64,000 nt of DNA from assembly GCF_034344865.1 (NCBI RefSeq), contig NZ_CP133774.1:7206763-7270762 (forward strand). Reading direction: 5' to 3'. The notes under the pieces were generated by a model, which searched no databases, was not told the DNA's origin, and was given only the letters and a program-made list of their open reading frames with translations. This DNA is from Pseudomonas sp. 10S4 (GTDB lineage Bacteria; Pseudomonadota; Gammaproteobacteria; Pseudomonadales; Pseudomonadaceae). The first letter of the stretch is position 1, and every line of letters begins with the position of its first letter. Of this stretch, positions 21,330 to 26,485 are shown piece by piece. Made by a program: the position numbers and the translations under genes.

Positions 21330-22328
21330 TCAGAGCAACCCATCACGCTCGGGTAACTCATACTCCGCCGCCACCTTACCCAACGCACCGGGCTTACCCG
21401 GCTTACTCAATGTTGGCTCCTTCTCCAGGCACTCCACCAGATAATCGATAAACACCCGAAGCTTGGGCGGCAGATAGCGGGTCGGTGAGTGCAACAACCA
21501 GGCACCGCCATGGTAGGAGGCCAGAAAGGTCCAGTCCGGCAGCACTTGCACAATCAACCCCTGCTCCAACGCATAACGGGCGGTGAAGTACGGAAGGCTG
21601 CCAATGCCGATGTGCTGCAACACCGCGCCCAAACGCACGCCAGTGTGATTGGCGGCGTATCGCCCGCGCACACCGACGGTCACGGCTTTAGTGCCTTTCT
21701 TGAATTTCCAGCGCGCATCGCTCGGGGTTTCGCCCAGGTAGATGCAGCTGTGATTGAGCAAGTCGTGGGGATGCATCGGCGTGCCGTGCTCGGCCAGGTA
21801 CTGCGGCGTCGCACAGAGCAAGTGGTCAATGGTCAGCAACTGCCGCCCTACCAGTCCTGCGGGCGGCCGATCAGTAATACGGATCGCCAGATCGACATGG
21901 TCATCGATCAAGTCCACCTGCCGGTCTTCGAGCAACAACTCCACATCCACTTTGGGATATCGGCGCAGAAATTCCGGCATATGCGGGTGAATCACAAATC
22001 GCCCCACTGCTTTGGGCACGCTGACCCGCACCAGGCCTTCAGCCTCATGGGTGAACTGGCCGCTGATTTCCATCACTGACTTGGCTGCGCTGACCATCTC
22101 CTGGCAACGCTTGAACACCTCTTCGCCACCGTCGCTCAGCCGCAGCTTGCGTGTGGTGCGCTGCAGCAACCGGGTGGCCAGGGCTTTTTCCAGACGCGAA
22201 ATACTGCGACTGACTGCCGAAGGTGACGAGCCCAACTGACGTGCCGCTTCGGAGAAGCTGCCGGTTTCGACAACCTTGACGAAAATCGCCATTTCACCCA
22301 ACAGCGGTAGCGGTAGATTTATGCTCAC
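21330..22328 (-). CDS. LysR-family regulator divergent from AlaX operon
   Basis: 332 residues: HTH at about 10-68 (FVKVVETGSFSEAARQLGSSPSAVSRSISRLEKAL), effector domain to about 305, and a short extra C-terminal tail. The gene is divergent from the AlaX-like / oxygenase / LysE operon with 90 bases between start codons, the usual layout of a LysR regulator and its target. LSNTGS-like HTH with QRTTRKLRLSDGGE places it in the CrgA/DhcR-like branch (inference). It ends just before a palindromic repeat. Confidence 0.92.
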   Translation of the reverse strand: MSINLPLPLLGEMAIFVKVVETGSFSEAARQLGSSPSAVSRSISRLEKALATRLLQRTTRKLRLSDGGEEVFKRCQEMVSAAKSVMEISGQFTHEAEGLVRVSVPKAVGRFVIHPHMPEFLRRYPKVDVELLLEDRQVDLIDDHVDLAIRITDRPPAGLVGRQLLTIDHLLCATPQYLAEHGTPMHPHDLLNHSCIYLGETPSDARWKFKKGTKAVTVGVRGRYAANHTGVRLGAVLQHIGIGSLPYFTARYALEQGLIVQVLPDWTFLASYHGGAWLLHSPTRYLPPKLRVFIDYLVECLEKEPTLSKPGKPGALGKVAAEYELPERDGLL

Positions 22329-22358
22329 AGCGCAACAGTCCTTTGATGTTTGAACGGA

Positions 22359-22387
22359 TTATCACGCAATTCCACGCTTCATATAAT
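22359..22387 (+). promoter_or_regulatory. Predicted sigma-70 promoter of AlaX-oxygenase-LysE operon
   Basis: TTATCA (22359-22364), 17-bp spacer, then a perfect TATAAT (22382-22387). Transcription would start near 22394, 25 bases before the AlaX-like start. The weak -35 next to a divergent LysR gene is what an activator-dependent promoter looks like. Confidence 0.55.
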
Positions 22388-22418
22388 AAAAATAGAAACT
22401 TTAATAAGGGCATGGAAT

Positions 22419-23045
22419 ATGACGCTTCGCCTCTTTTTCCATAGTGATGACCTCAAAGCTAATGTGGAAGTCCTGGATTGCACGCCCCACGAGAATGAAT
22501 TCGCGGTCGTTTTGCGCGCCACACTGTTTCACCCCCAGGGCGGTGGACAGCCCTTTGATACCGGCTGGATTGGTGAAAGCCAGGTGCTACGGGTGGTCCA
22601 GGATCCGGACCGGATCATCCATTACGTCGACCACCCGGTAAAACTCGGCATGACTCAGATACGGGTCGACGAGCAACGCCGCCAATTCAATACCCGCATG
22701 CATTCGGCCGGCCACCTGATTGGCCACTTCGTTCAGGCGCTGGGCTGGATGCCGACCAAGGCGCATCACTGGCCCAACGAAGGCCGTGTGCAGTTCAAAC
22801 CGGCAGACTCGGCACAAGAGGTTGATGCGCAGATCGTTCAGAGCGGCATCGAACAGTGGATCGCCCATGACCTGCCACGCCTGACTTCACTGCGCGAAGG
22901 CGCCCGGGAAATCGGTTTCGGTGAACTTCCGGCCTACGGCTGTGGCGGCACCCATGTACGTAGCCTGAAGGATTTGGGCACAGTCTCGATCGACTCCCTT
23001 TCTCAGAAAAAGGGCACGTTGTCCGTCCACTACCACGTGGATTGA
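22419..23045 (+). CDS. AlaX-type alanyl-tRNA editing protein
   Basis: 208 residues, a free-standing homologue of the AlaRS editing domain. Zinc ligands are H95 and H99 (HSAGH) and C175 plus H179 (CGGTH); the family motif HPQGGGQPFDTG spans 38-49. AlaX proteins hydrolyse misacylated tRNA(Ala), mainly Ser- or Gly-tRNA(Ala). ATG 22419 is chosen because the homology begins there; the frame is open 23 codons upstream. It is first in an operon with an Fe(II)/2-oxoglutarate oxygenase and a LysE exporter, which suggests it protects translation from an unusual amino acid made or handled by the operon. Confidence 0.9.
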   Translation: MTLRLFFHSDDLKANVEVLDCTPHENEFAVVLRATLFHPQGGGQPFDTGWIGESQVLRVVQDPDRIIHYVDHPVKLGMTQIRVDEQRRQFNTRMHSAGHLIGHFVQALGWMPTKAHHWPNEGRVQFKPADSAQEVDAQIVQSGIEQWIAHDLPRLTSLREGAREIGFGELPAYGCGGTHVRSLKDLGTVSIDSLSQKKGTLSVHYHVD

Positions 23046-23136
23046 GCATTTTGGCGATGTCGACACCGTCATCGCCTGACGCGGGGGCGCCTGCATTCGC
23101 GGGCTCCGTTGACTACTCGATAGATGGACCTAAACC

Positions 23137-23907
23137 ATGATGCTTGACGTCGAGCGTCTCGATGAGACGTGCATAAAAAAACTGGCCAATGAAGAAGTCC
23201 TCGCCATCCGCGTCAAAGGCTTTTTGCCTCAGCCGCTGGCGGTGCAGATTGGCGACAAGATTCTTGCACCGGGCTTTGAAGGCTATATCAATGCGCCGAG
23301 CATCGGTCGCATCGGCATGGCGTTTTACGAAGCGGAAAACCAGCCACTGCTGATCGAAGACTATTTCGAGCGCGCCACCAGCAACATCGAGGAACTGCGC
23401 AACCGATGCGCGCCCTACTCGTCCCCGGTCGACACCCTGCGTTGCATGCTTGATGAGTCCTGGCCAGCAGGCGCGCACCTGGAGAACCTCTACGGTCGCA
23501 AAATGTATGTCGGGCTGTCCCGAGTGGTGAAGCCCGGGGTGTGCTTTCTCGCCCATCACGACATTTTCGCCAAGGACGCCCCGGACAGTTTCCAGGCCAA
23601 AAGCCTGGAGGCGCAATTTGCCTGCAACGTGTACCTGAACATGCCCACCGAGGGCGGCGCGTTGCAGATGTGGGACCACGACATTACCCCCGACCAGTTC
23701 GACGAAATGCGTGGCGACAGTTACGGCATCGAGCCGACCCTGCTTGGACCTCCAACCCTGGAGATTCGCCCCGACCCGGGCGATTTCATCATGTTCAATT
23801 CGCGCTGCATGCACTCGGTGACCCCGGGTGTGGCAGACCCGCGATTGAGCCTTTCGTTCTTTGTCGGCTACCGCGGCAATGCTTCACCCCTTACCTTTTG
23901 GAGTTGA
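23137..23907 (+). CDS. Fe(II)/2-oxoglutarate-dependent oxygenase, probable amino-acid hydroxylase
   Basis: 256 residues. A jelly-roll 2OG-oxygenase pattern is visible: iron ligands H140-x-D142 (in LAHHDIFAKD), distal H226 (MHSVTP) and the 2OG-binding R236 ten residues later (PRLSLSFF). NVYLNMPTEGGALQMWDHD and PGDFIMFNSRCMHSV are typical of the fold. The Asp is present, so it should hydroxylate rather than halogenate, although the size and motifs recall the BesD-like free-amino-acid radical halogenase/hydroxylase group (inference, not searched). Start could be either of two consecutive ATGs. It lies between an AlaX-like gene and a LysE exporter one base downstream, pointing to a free amino acid substrate. 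Confidence 0.8.
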   Translation: MMLDVERLDETCIKKLANEEVLAIRVKGFLPQPLAVQIGDKILAPGFEGYINAPSIGRIGMAFYEAENQPLLIEDYFERATSNIEELRNRCAPYSSPVDTLRCMLDESWPAGAHLENLYGRKMYVGLSRVVKPGVCFLAHHDIFAKDAPDSFQAKSLEAQFACNVYLNMPTEGGALQMWDHDITPDQFDEMRGDSYGIEPTLLGPPTLEIRPDPGDFIMFNSRCMHSVTPGVADPRLSLSFFVGYRGNASPLTFWS

Positions 23908-23908
23908 G

Positions 23909-24547
23909 ATGCTTTCGAATTACCTGGGCGAGTTTCTGGCGCTGGCGACCATCCACTTCCTGGCCGTGGTCGCACCCGGACCGGACTTCGCCGTGACCAT
24001 TCGCCAGAGCGTGCGCTTTGGTCGACTGGTGGGTATCTGCACCGCACTGGGCATCGGTGCGGGGATTTCCGTGCATGTGCTTTACACCCTGCTGGGCGTT
24101 GGCGCGCTGATGCACACCACGCCCTGGTTGCTGACAGTGGCCAAGGTCGTGGGCGGCGCCTACATTCTGTATCTCGGCGTCAGTCTGTTGCGCAGCAAAC
24201 CGAAAACCGCGCTGGAAGGTGACAAGGCGGCAGACGAACCAGTGGTCGAGCAAACACTGTTGAAGGCATTCACCACCGGCTTCCTGACCAACGCGACCAA
24301 CCCGAAAGCCACGCTGTTTTTCCTGGCGATCTTCACCACCATCATCAGCGCCACGACGCCGCTAAAGATCCAGGCTTTGTATGGCCTTTGGATGTGCTTC
24401 GTGAACGCATTGTGGTTTGTGATCGTTGCGCTGTTCTTTTCCAGCGCTCGAGTGCGACTGCTGTTTATGCGCATGGGGCATTGGTTCGAACGCACCATGG
24501 GAGTGATTCTGATCCTGTTCGCCGGGCGCCTGATTTTATCGATGTAA
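23909..24547 (+). CDS. LysE/RhtB-family amino acid exporter
   Basis: 212 residues with six predicted helices. VVAPGPDFAVTIRQSVRFGR near residue 20 and GFLTNATNPKATLFFLAIF near 130 are the LysE/RhtB signatures. Inner-membrane efflux of amino acids driven by the proton gradient. ATG 23909 comes one base after the oxygenase stop, with GGAG eight bases upstream, so the two are translationally coupled. In this setting it probably exports the oxygenase product. A terminator follows. Confidence 0.92.
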   Translation: MLSNYLGEFLALATIHFLAVVAPGPDFAVTIRQSVRFGRLVGICTALGIGAGISVHVLYTLLGVGALMHTTPWLLTVAKVVGGAYILYLGVSLLRSKPKTALEGDKAADEPVVEQTLLKAFTTGFLTNATNPKATLFFLAIFTTIISATTPLKIQALYGLWMCFVNALWFVIVALFFSSARVRLLFMRMGHWFERTMGVILILFAGRLILSM

Positions 24548-24745: not shown

Positions 24746-26485
24746 ATGGATTTTTCTCTCAAACAACTGGCCGCAACTACATTGATGCTGGCCAGCCTTT
24801 CGTCGTTTACCACACTTGCGCACGCCAGCATCACCCCGCAACAGAGCGCGACCATTCTCAAGACTTTCAGTGACGCCTCGGTGACAGACTTCAGGCAGTT
24901 CCTGGGAAGCCTGGCCAAGAGCGATCTTGCCAAAACCGACGACCTCGGCCCGGCAATCAGTGCTTTCCTCGACAACAAGACACTTTCCCCAGATCAGCAG
25001 AACGAGATATATCGCCTGCTTGGCCTCTATGCACGAGTGAAGTATGGCGCCGCTGCCACCGAGACTCTGCGCGAACTGGTGGAAATCCCGACCTTCCAAG
25101 TGGAAGGTGTTGCCCAGCATGACAACCCGCAATTCATCAAGATCGCCGACAAGATCAAGGGCCTTGCCCAGGCCTTCAACCTGAACTTTCGCAACATCGA
25201 CAACCGTGTCTATGAAATCTCCCTGGAAGGCAGTGGCGATGAAGTCGTGGGCATTCACGCGCATGCCGATGTGGTGCCCGTGACGCCGGAGAACTGGGTC
25301 CTGAAAGATGGCACCAAACTCGATCCATTCAAGATCACCCTGATCGGCGACCGCATGTACGGCCGGGGCACCGAGGATGACAAGAACGGCATCGTCGTAG
25401 CGCTCTACGCCATGAAGATCATCAAGGAAGAGAAGCTGCCACTGGCGAGGAATTTCAAGCTGCTGGTCGACACCACCGAGGAAACCACCGGCGACGCCAT
25501 CCCCTATTACTTCGAACACAACCCGATACCCAACTACAACCTGGCGCTGGATGGCGGCTATCCGGTAGTGATTGCCGAGAAAGGCTACGGCACCGTCATG
25601 GCGAGCTTTGCCAAGCGCAAGGCAGAGGGCAAAGGCGCCGAAATCATCTCGATGACGGGCGGCCTGGCCACTAACCAGATTCCGTCGGCTTCGGTCGCCA
25701 CCCTGGTGACTGACAAACCCGCCGAATTGGCTGCCAGCCTGCAGACGGCCGGGACTGACTATGCCAAGCGCAATGGCGGCAACTTCGAAGTGAGCGCCAA
25801 GGTCGACGGCAAGGACGTCAAACTGACGGTCACCGGCGTCTCCGCCCACTCCTCCGAGCCCGAATCAGGCGTCAACCCGGTAGCCAGGATGCTGGACTTC
25901 ATCAACAGCCTCGACGGCAAGGTTGCGCTCAAGCACAACCACATCACTGACGCCGCCCGTTACGCCGCCGATAACTGGGGCCTGGACTATCTGGGTGGCA
26001 AATTGGGCGTTGGTTTTTCCGATGCCTTCATGGGGCCGCTGACCACGTCCCTGACCTATGTCGGGATGGATAAGAAAGCCTTCAAGCTCGCGGTCAATCT
26101 GCGCGTGCCGAAGGGCGAGTCCCCGGAAGCGCTCAAGACGAAAATTGCTGAAAAGATTGGCGCCTGGAGCAAGAAGTCCCACGTTGCAGCAACCTTCAAC
26201 TACTCGATCGCTGAGCCTATGTACCGCAACCCTGAGGGCGAATGGGTCAAAGCCCTGCTGGCCGTGTCCACTGAAAACCTCGGCATGGAACACAAGTTTG
26301 GCAGCTCCGCTGGCGCCACTTCGGTCCATGAGCTGCCCAATGGCGTGCAGTTCGGCCTGGCCCGGCCAGAGGTCAAGTACACCGGGCACACTGACAACGA
26401 GTTCAAGACTGTCGACCAGTTCCTGCTGGACCTGCAGATCGTGACCGAGATGATGGGGCGTATCGGGCAGTTGCCGAAGCTCTGA
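24746..26485 (+). CDS. Secreted M20-family dipeptidase
   Basis: About 579 residues. Sec signal peptide at 1-24 (basic start, LAATTLMLASLSSFTTLAHA, then Ser). The M20 metallopeptidase core follows: GIHAHADVVP (zinc His and Asp), GRGTEDDKNGIV (bridging Asp), TEETTGD (general base Glu and zinc Glu), ALDGGYPV and the last zinc His in YTGHTDNEF. Dimerisation domain in the middle. Predicted periplasmic or exported PepV-like dipeptidase. Start at ATG 24746 (AAGGA 11 bases upstream); ATG 24734 is possible but touches the Shine-Dalgarno sequence. Confidence 0.9.
   Translation: MDFSLKQLAATTLMLASLSSFTTLAHASITPQQSATILKTFSDASVTDFRQFLGSLAKSDLAKTDDLGPAISAFLDNKTLSPDQQNEIYRLLGLYARVKYGAAATETLRELVEIPTFQVEGVAQHDNPQFIKIADKIKGLAQAFNLNFRNIDNRVYEISLEGSGDEVVGIHAHADVVPVTPENWVLKDGTKLDPFKITLIGDRMYGRGTEDDKNGIVVALYAMKIIKEEKLPLARNFKLLVDTTEETTGDAIPYYFEHNPIPNYNLALDGGYPVVIAEKGYGTVMASFAKRKAEGKGAEIISMTGGLATNQIPSASVATLVTDKPAELAASLQTAGTDYAKRNGGNFEVSAKVDGKDVKLTVTGVSAHSSEPESGVNPVARMLDFINSLDGKVALKHNHITDAARYAADNWGLDYLGGKLGVGFSDAFMGPLTTSLTYVGMDKKAFKLAVNLRVPKGESPEALKTKIAEKIGAWSKKSHVAATFNYSIAEPMYRNPEGEWVKALLAVSTENLGMEHKFGSSAGATSVHELPNGVQFGLARPEVKYTGHTDNEFKTVDQFLLDLQIVTEMMGRIGQLPKL

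Follow-up and report, generated by a model that had tools for sequence, protein, structure and literature searches.

A LysR-AlaX-oxygenase-LysE cassette of Pseudomonas that may make, edit out and export a non-protein amino acid

Why should a gene for a freestanding aminoacyl-tRNA editing protein travel with genes for an oxygenase and an amino-acid exporter? The question is raised by a locus in the window, the 64,000-base stretch (7206763-7270762) that forms the end of the 7.27-Mb chromosome of Pseudomonas sp. 10S4. Here a LysR-type regulator gene diverges from three genes in a row, encoding an AlaX-type editing protein (AlaX), a putative Fe(II)/2-oxoglutarate (Fe/2OG) oxygenase (OXY) and a LysE/RhtB-type exporter (LysE). 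The explanation that we lean towards, and consider somewhat probable, is that OXY makes an oxidised non-protein amino acid, that AlaX clears this product from mischarged tRNA, and that LysE exports it. The features of the locus, in coordinates of the window, are as follows.

21330-22328, minus strand: LysR-type regulator with a GTG start, matching PF03466 (5.7e-38) and PF00126 (2e-20), divergent from AlaX-OXY-LysE
22342-22365, no strand assigned: candidate LysR operator, a conserved intergenic block, TTTGATGTTTGAACGGATTATCAC, overlapping the -35 element
22359-22387, plus strand: promoter TTATCA (22359-22364), 17-base spacer, TATAAT (22382-22387), within the 90-base LysR-AlaX intergenic region
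22419-23045, plus strand: AlaX-type freestanding aminoacyl-tRNA editing protein, 208 amino acids, ATG at 22419
23137-23907, plus strand: OXY, Fe(II)/2-oxoglutarate oxygenase, 256 amino acids, WelO5/SadA-like fold
23909-24547, plus strand: LysE/RhtB-type amino-acid exporter, 212 amino acids, PF01810
24563-24597, plus strand: intrinsic terminator-like hairpin, GGCCCGC/GCGGGCC stem followed by a T run

Linkage of the three genes across genomes

A first-pass annotation of this DNA had proposed looking for conserved adjacency of the trio across Pseudomonas, and its idea survived that search strongly. With thresholds of E <= 1e-10 for OXY, 1e-8 for AlaX and 1e-85 for LysE, OXY matches were found in 81 of 298 Pseudomonas genomes, 63 of them being orthologues at 88-100% identity, while AlaX matches occur in 143 genomes and LysE matches in 81. 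Both AlaX and LysE are adjacent to OXY in all 63 orthologue-bearing genomes (in G034 with AlaX in two pieces), and none of the 63 has OXY without AlaX or without LysE. At the level of loci, all 80 Pseudomonas loci looked at (80 kept of 135 relatives) have LysR-AlaX-OXY-LysE arranged and oriented alike, and we reject a chance neighbourhood on these counts. The combined tally, which typed 142 of the 143 AlaX-positive genomes, places among the other Pseudomonas 11 genomes with AlaX-LysE and no OXY, 68 with AlaX and neither a LysE orthologue nor OXY, and seven with LysE only. Eight of the 68 have weak (<50% identity) or broken AlaX matches, and in one genome counted as AlaX-only (G134) a diverged LysE adjoins AlaX.

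Beyond Pseudomonas, a sister genus has OXY in 12 of 13 genomes, with all four genes present in 12 of 12 loci. An Acidihalobacter-like genome (G560) has the four genes arranged and oriented as in Pseudomonas, and the trio order is repeated in G936 and G1197. OXY orthologues are nonetheless rare and patchy: the class search found one in 369 genomes beyond the window's own, and the phylum search two in 398 outside the genus. In a Xenorhabdus-like genus, 9 of 30 genomes have an OXY match; three carry intact orthologues, two of these with the trio, and three carry broken ones, while three genomes, together with one of the broken-copy genomes, have OXY homologues of 29-30% identity. The broken copies (L159, L163 and L164) adjoin LysE, with a full-length AlaX match only in L163. 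A phage origin of the cassette is rejected, no match having been found in 50,697 phage records.

The layout described by the first-pass annotation, namely a divergent LysR gene, a TATAAT promoter, three co-directional genes, a one-base gap and a terminator, was correct in its coordinates as well. The ATG at 22419 fits as the start of AlaX because the promoter sits inside the longer frame that would begin at TTG. In an alignment of 100 LysR-AlaX intergenic regions, TATAAT is kept in 95, OXY-less loci included, and the most conserved long stretch is the block at 22342-22365, which is our candidate for the LysR operator. AlaX and OXY are 91 bases apart, and between the OXY stop and the LysE ATG there is a single base. 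An M20-type dipeptidase gene (24746-26485) lies 3' of the terminator; we considered it as a fourth gene of the cassette and rejected it, as it is present in only 31 of the 80 Pseudomonas trio loci (some of which end at contig ends).

The oxygenase, the editing protein and the exporter

OXY matches PF13640 at 37.8 bits, passing the cut-off of 27. Its iron triad (H140, D142, H226) and its 2-oxoglutarate-binding R236, which the first-pass annotation had numbered correctly, are invariant in all 81 aligned sequences, comprising the window protein and 80 of 120 listed relatives. R192 and Y196 are invariant as well. Among solved structures, OXY comes nearest in fold to the alkaloid halogenase WelO5 and to 3w20 (SadA), a dioxygenase of N-substituted amino acids, at 15-17% identity. 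OXY itself scores 22.2 bits against the WelO5 family PF22814, under the gathering score of 27, and its relatives on an Acinetobacter plasmid (38.8 bits), in Embleya (40.9) and in G593 (37) pass. In Fe/2OG halogenases such as WelO5 and BesD/HalD, a small residue (Gly or Ala) replaces the triad aspartate. A halogenase role for OXY is rejected on the retention of D142 in 81 of 81 sequences, and OXY is for the same reason predicted to be a hydroxylase. Among its structural neighbours HalD (7u6h) appears only at rank 33, with a TM score of 0.45, and the BesD family is not among the 50 entries listed; against the HilA model OXY scores 19.8 bits, short of the cut-off of 500. OXY relatives are also known as proteins from Pectobacterium, Chromobacterium, Halomonas, Stenotrophomonas and others, and we found no characterised member of the WelO5/SadA-like clade to which OXY belongs.

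AlaX matches PF01411 and PF07973, in both cases under the Pfam cut-off, and reaches 67.6 bits against the NCBIfam AlaXM model, whose cut-off is 300; by sequence it is an AlaX-like protein standing outside the curated AlaXM set. It matches the AlaX-M structure 2e1b with an E-value of 1.5e-12. The zinc ligands of the HxxxH and CxxxH motifs (H95, H99, C175 and H179), which the first-pass annotation had called complete, do not vary among the 18 natural AlaX rows aligned, and neither does the GGGQ loop (G41-Q44), which is common to the editing domain of alanyl-tRNA synthetase (AlaRS). The zinc residues are also intact in all eight AlaX rows from OXY-less loci, and AlaX from such loci has a ratio of nonsynonymous to synonymous substitution rates (dN/dS) of 0.07-0.19 in nine pairs, so that AlaX kept without OXY is under purifying selection.

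The AlaRS of the same genome has an editing domain, and it is intact; AlaX therefore fills no gap, and a role as replacement for a missing AlaRS editing domain is rejected. A side observation from the same genome is a 297-residue protein resembling threonyl-tRNA synthetase (L003 1069-1962, near 1702451), with TGS and anticodon-binding domains, a weak tRNA_SAD match and no catalytic-domain match.

A broader role in translation quality control deserves consideration here, in which AlaX would clear Ser- or Gly-tRNA(Ala) in stressed cells, oxidative stress being one example, and the pool of the offending ordinary amino acid would be trimmed by OXY and LysE. AlaX is reported to hydrolyse Ser- and Gly-tRNA(Ala) in the available part of PMC11295145, and the 68 of 298 genomes in which AlaX stands with neither OXY nor a LysE orthologue (eight by weak or broken matches), and where it is under purifying selection, would suit such a role. 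The intact editing domain of the host AlaRS argues against it, and it leaves unexplained both the tight coupling of AlaX to a dedicated oxygenase over wide evolutionary distances and the occurrence of AlaX in the coronamic-acid and chlorinase operons (discussed below), so that we consider it improbable.

The exporter belongs to the LysE superfamily, passing PF01810 with 121.3 bits (cut-off 25.6); against TIGR00949, the RhtB homoserine/threonine exporters, it scores 150.9 bits, below the cut-off of 183.95.

Turnover of the oxygenase and carriage on plasmids

To follow OXY over time we used a tree of flank genes with 97 loci (78 with the trio, four AlaX-LysE and 15 AlaX only). The 20 OXY-less loci entered for it were drawn from 79 AlaX-positive, OXY-negative genomes, and 4 of 101 loci were dropped with LysR or PA2817 missing or partial. 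Presence of OXY changes at least nine times on this tree, five of the changes being forced by starred branches, and OXY-less loci are nested among trio loci, for example L189, L191 and L187/L190. These nested loci are best read as repeated losses of OXY, given that the sister genus and G560 both have the full set. The tree alone is silent on the reverse loss, since its OXY-less loci came from AlaX-bearing genomes; it is the count of none in 63 given above that shows the one-sidedness.

Some of the OXY-less loci seem to carry traces of what was lost. The LysE terminator lies within 132 bases behind AlaX in 5 of 14 AlaX-only loci (L188, L191, L192, L193 and L195). In the AlaX-LysE loci, the bases 5' of LysE resemble the 3' end of OXY, and when the AlaX-LysE stretch, minus the 12 bases before the LysE start (the ribosome-binding stretch), was compared with 300 shuffles, the remnant stood above them in L190, where none of the 300 did as well, and in L194, where six did. 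A blastn search of OXY against the downstream stretches gave no OXY match at E 0.01. This pattern, with AlaX kept while OXY changes, resembles that of producers and immune non-producers.

Plasmids carry the trio as well. A 6362-base MOBP plasmid of Acinetobacter johnsonii has AlaX-OXY-LysE together with mobilisation genes and an insertion-sequence-type integrase fragment. It is filed both under A. johnsonii FDAARGOS_1092 (L117) and under Achromobacter xylosoxidans FDAARGOS_1091 (L123), the two records being identical with 0 mismatches once rotated; as the copies are identical and come from neighbouring FDAARGOS sample numbers we count the plasmid once, and sample carry-over is a possible explanation. 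In Photobacterium sp. GJ3 two replicons carry the trio, one of them with a broken frame. A 15-kb A. johnsonii plasmid (NZ_CP065663.1, L212 3420-5710) carries LysR-AlaX-LysE without OXY, and small Acinetobacter plasmids have a related LysE but match neither AlaX nor OXY.

Sixteen plasmid records have an OXY match, and nine of them also have AlaX among the matches listed, compared with 0.007 shared records expected under independence, an estimate that ignores relatedness and record size. AlaX lies within 2 kb of OXY in seven records, representing six distinct replicons from five strains; the other nine have no AlaX within 2 kb among the matches listed, and in two of these (S. cattleya) it is about 74 kb away. 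Near the S. cattleya AlaX (L219) there is a LysE frame (PF01810, 112 bits) at about 1.6 kb and no oxygenase frame that could be recognised by eye. For AlaX itself we took the best 30 of 33 plasmid records and read the neighbourhoods in 18. On a Cupriavidus oxalaticus plasmid (L215 6001-7168) a RidA-family gene comes next after AlaX. Two plasmids, filed under Pantoea eucrina (L216) and Acinetobacter venetianus (L217), agree in their gene order around AlaX, so that one of the two may be mislabelled.

Among more distant relatives, OXY homologues of 27-36% identity adjoin AlaX in Caballeronia, Undibacterium, Embleya (where a gene of the major facilitator superfamily, MFS, is next) and G593. Such distant pairs are found in beta-proteobacteria and an actinomycete, and those of Caballeronia, Undibacterium and Embleya are among the seven plasmid records with AlaX within 2 kb. 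Priestia has the AlaX-LysE pair alone.

Related systems and what the cassette may do

A close parallel to the arrangement comes from the coronamic-acid (cma) genes. On the Pseudomonas tremae plasmid NZ_CP066271.1 (L221 5926-7194), cmaA, a chlorinating enzyme, CmaC and hydrolases are followed by AlaX and LysE, so that an Fe/2OG-type chlorinating enzyme, AlaX and LysE stand in a single co-directional run, much as OXY, AlaX and LysE do in our cassette. The cma cluster differs in its carrier-bound chlorinating enzyme and in its genes for adenylation, a carrier and a cyclase; its AlaX is only 29% identical to that of the window, and its LysE barely aligns. AlaX, intact in P. tremae, is matched in two pieces in eight other plasmid records of the P. 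syringae group, and in the one such record that was read insertion sequences part AlaX from LysE. The available parts of PMC10354423 and PMC7385143 give the coronamic-acid genes as cmaABCDET and cmaU, without AlaX. On a Salmonella enterica IncI1 plasmid (NZ_CP030220.1, L218 3122-8201) the genes for an adenylation domain and a carrier precede, in one co-directional run, that of a chlorinating enzyme (446 bits against a cut-off of 226), after which come genes for an AlaX-like protein, then an EamA exporter and last a thioesterase; the run looks like a chloro-amino-acid pathway with self-protection. Taken together, the cma, Salmonella and Embleya contexts indicate that AlaX with an exporter recurs beside different Fe/2OG chemistries and three exporter families (LysE, EamA and MFS).

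The logic also has precedents among producers of toxic amino acids. According to the available part of PMC7408626, the deacylase FthB and the exporter FthC shield the producer of 4-fluorothreonine. FthB is related to ProXp-ST1 of the INS superfamily and is not an AlaX (available part of PMC11295145), whereas no INS family appears among the matches of the window AlaX, which matches the AlaRS editing domain instead. In both cases a freestanding aminoacyl-tRNA deacylase is linked with an exporter, and the present cassette extends such linkage, by its genes alone, to an oxidising enzyme; the 4-fluorothreonine comes from a fluorinase pathway and not from an Fe/2OG oxygenase. The FthB/FthC work is reportedly that of McMurry and Chang (2017).

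Pseudomonas fluorescens WH6 makes the toxic amino acid 4-formylaminooxyvinylglycine (FVG), and its gvg cluster includes the LysE-family exporters gvgJ and gvgK, whose double loss is lethal in the producer; as far as the available part of PMC6039020 goes, the pathway is multi-enzyme, unlike ours, and AlaX is not mentioned. Antimetabolite-making hydroxylase-exporter operons have been proposed for IDO and Hil, where a free amino acid is hydroxylated by Fe/2OG chemistry, the Hil operons having a LysR-type regulator and in some instances an RhtA-family exporter; in the accessible portion of that source (PMC3684760) AlaX goes unmentioned, an additional oxygenase and a dehydrogenase are present, and the oxygenase is of another family. 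A full-text literature search, covering few subscription papers, found no description of an AlaX/oxygenase/LysE combination. The parts and their logic are already known from FthB/FthC, gvg and cma, and the cassette of the window joins them in their smallest form, with one oxygenase, one editor and one exporter.

One might instead suppose that the cassette is a defence against a toxic amino acid from outside, made by plants or other microbes, with LysR sensing it, OXY detoxifying it, AlaX clearing the tRNAs and LysE expelling it. The divergent LysR and the carriage on mobile plasmids suit an inducible resistance; loci with AlaX-LysE and no OXY, whether chromosomal or on the 15-kb Acinetobacter plasmid, would then be partial resistance, and the solitary pair in Priestia would agree. 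On the other side, AlaX and an exporter accompany producers in the coronamic-acid and chlorinase operons, and a detoxifier would be expected sometimes to occur without AlaX, which is the case in none of the 63 Pseudomonas genomes and in one Xenorhabdus-like copy. We therefore regard a defensive role as unlikely, albeit the most serious of the alternatives.

The presence of AlaX with an exporter in the coronamic-acid cluster supports the idea of a unit that makes an amino acid and protects against it. In the scheme that we infer, from its chemical steps and substrate to the product and its toxicity, OXY, as a predicted hydroxylase, would oxidise a small amino acid, or a compound closely derived from one, to a non-protein amino acid, which AlaRS or a similar synthetase would charge by mistake. 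AlaX would hydrolyse the mischarged tRNA in trans, LysE would pump the product out of the cell, and the divergent LysR would control the unit, while strains and plasmids with AlaX, with or without LysE, and without OXY would be immune non-producers.

Several observations weigh against this scheme. The first-pass reading of the three genes gained support from their linkage and from the AlaX-exporter pairing in the coronamic-acid cluster; its suggestion that OXY acts on a free amino acid fares less well, the enzymes of nearest fold, WelO5 and 3w20, using an alkaloid and N-substituted amino acids instead of free ones. An intact Xenorhabdus-like locus (L158) has OXY-LysE without an adjacent AlaX, the only AlaX match of that genome being about 156 kb away. 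AlaX, being common without any oxygenase, is also useful alone. The other nine of the 14 AlaX-only loci have no trace of a lost OXY or LysE, and the remnant test failed in L187 (149 of 300 shuffles as good) and L198 (58 of 300); gain of OXY, instead of its loss, may account for these loci and for the deeper AlaX-only ones. On an AlaX tree of 28 rows, chosen by us, the OXY label changes at least nine times (six forced by starred branches) and is no more clustered than shuffled labels, whose mean is 9.5; the association with OXY therefore comes and goes across distinct AlaX lineages. Patterns of loss are in any case silent on whether OXY makes or detoxifies its compound.

Finally, in the stretches retrieved around Pseudomonas paralogues of OXY at about 35% identity, neither AlaX nor LysE was detected, and the one paralogue whose neighbours were scanned adjoins a cyclodipeptide synthase. 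In that locus (L124 6350-13065) and similar Pseudomonas loci the paralogue lies in an uncharacterised small cluster, in which the cyclodipeptide synthase passes the PF16715 cut-off by little and is accompanied by an MFS transporter and a TonB-dependent receptor. Such company could suggest that the product of OXY is a hydroxylated building block or a signal and not a toxin, with AlaX and LysE limiting its misuse and leakage, and hydroxylated isoleucine has been discussed as a possible signal precursor (available part of PMC3684760). Since neither the cassette nor the 6.4-kb plasmid shows a ligase, nonribosomal peptide synthetase or synthase, and export is the only visible fate of the product, we think this very improbable.

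A more specific form of the make-and-protect scheme, which we put forward tentatively and think somewhat less likely than not, is a one-enzyme antimetabolite system akin to a small-molecule toxin-immunity unit. OXY would convert a common amino acid to a poison of translation, AlaX would be the cognate immunity acting on tRNA, LysE would release the poison, minimal plasmids would carry the unit, and the AlaX of non-producers would be orphan immunity. If the make-and-protect scheme is right, plant-associated Pseudomonas would have, in very small compass, both the production of an antimetabolite aimed at translation and the immunity to it, and the cassette would offer a target for substrate discovery within the WelO5/SadA-like enzyme clade. 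AlaX genes are commonly taken for housekeeping proofreaders; some of them would then mark clusters for unusual amino acids, and so provide a cheap handle for genome mining.

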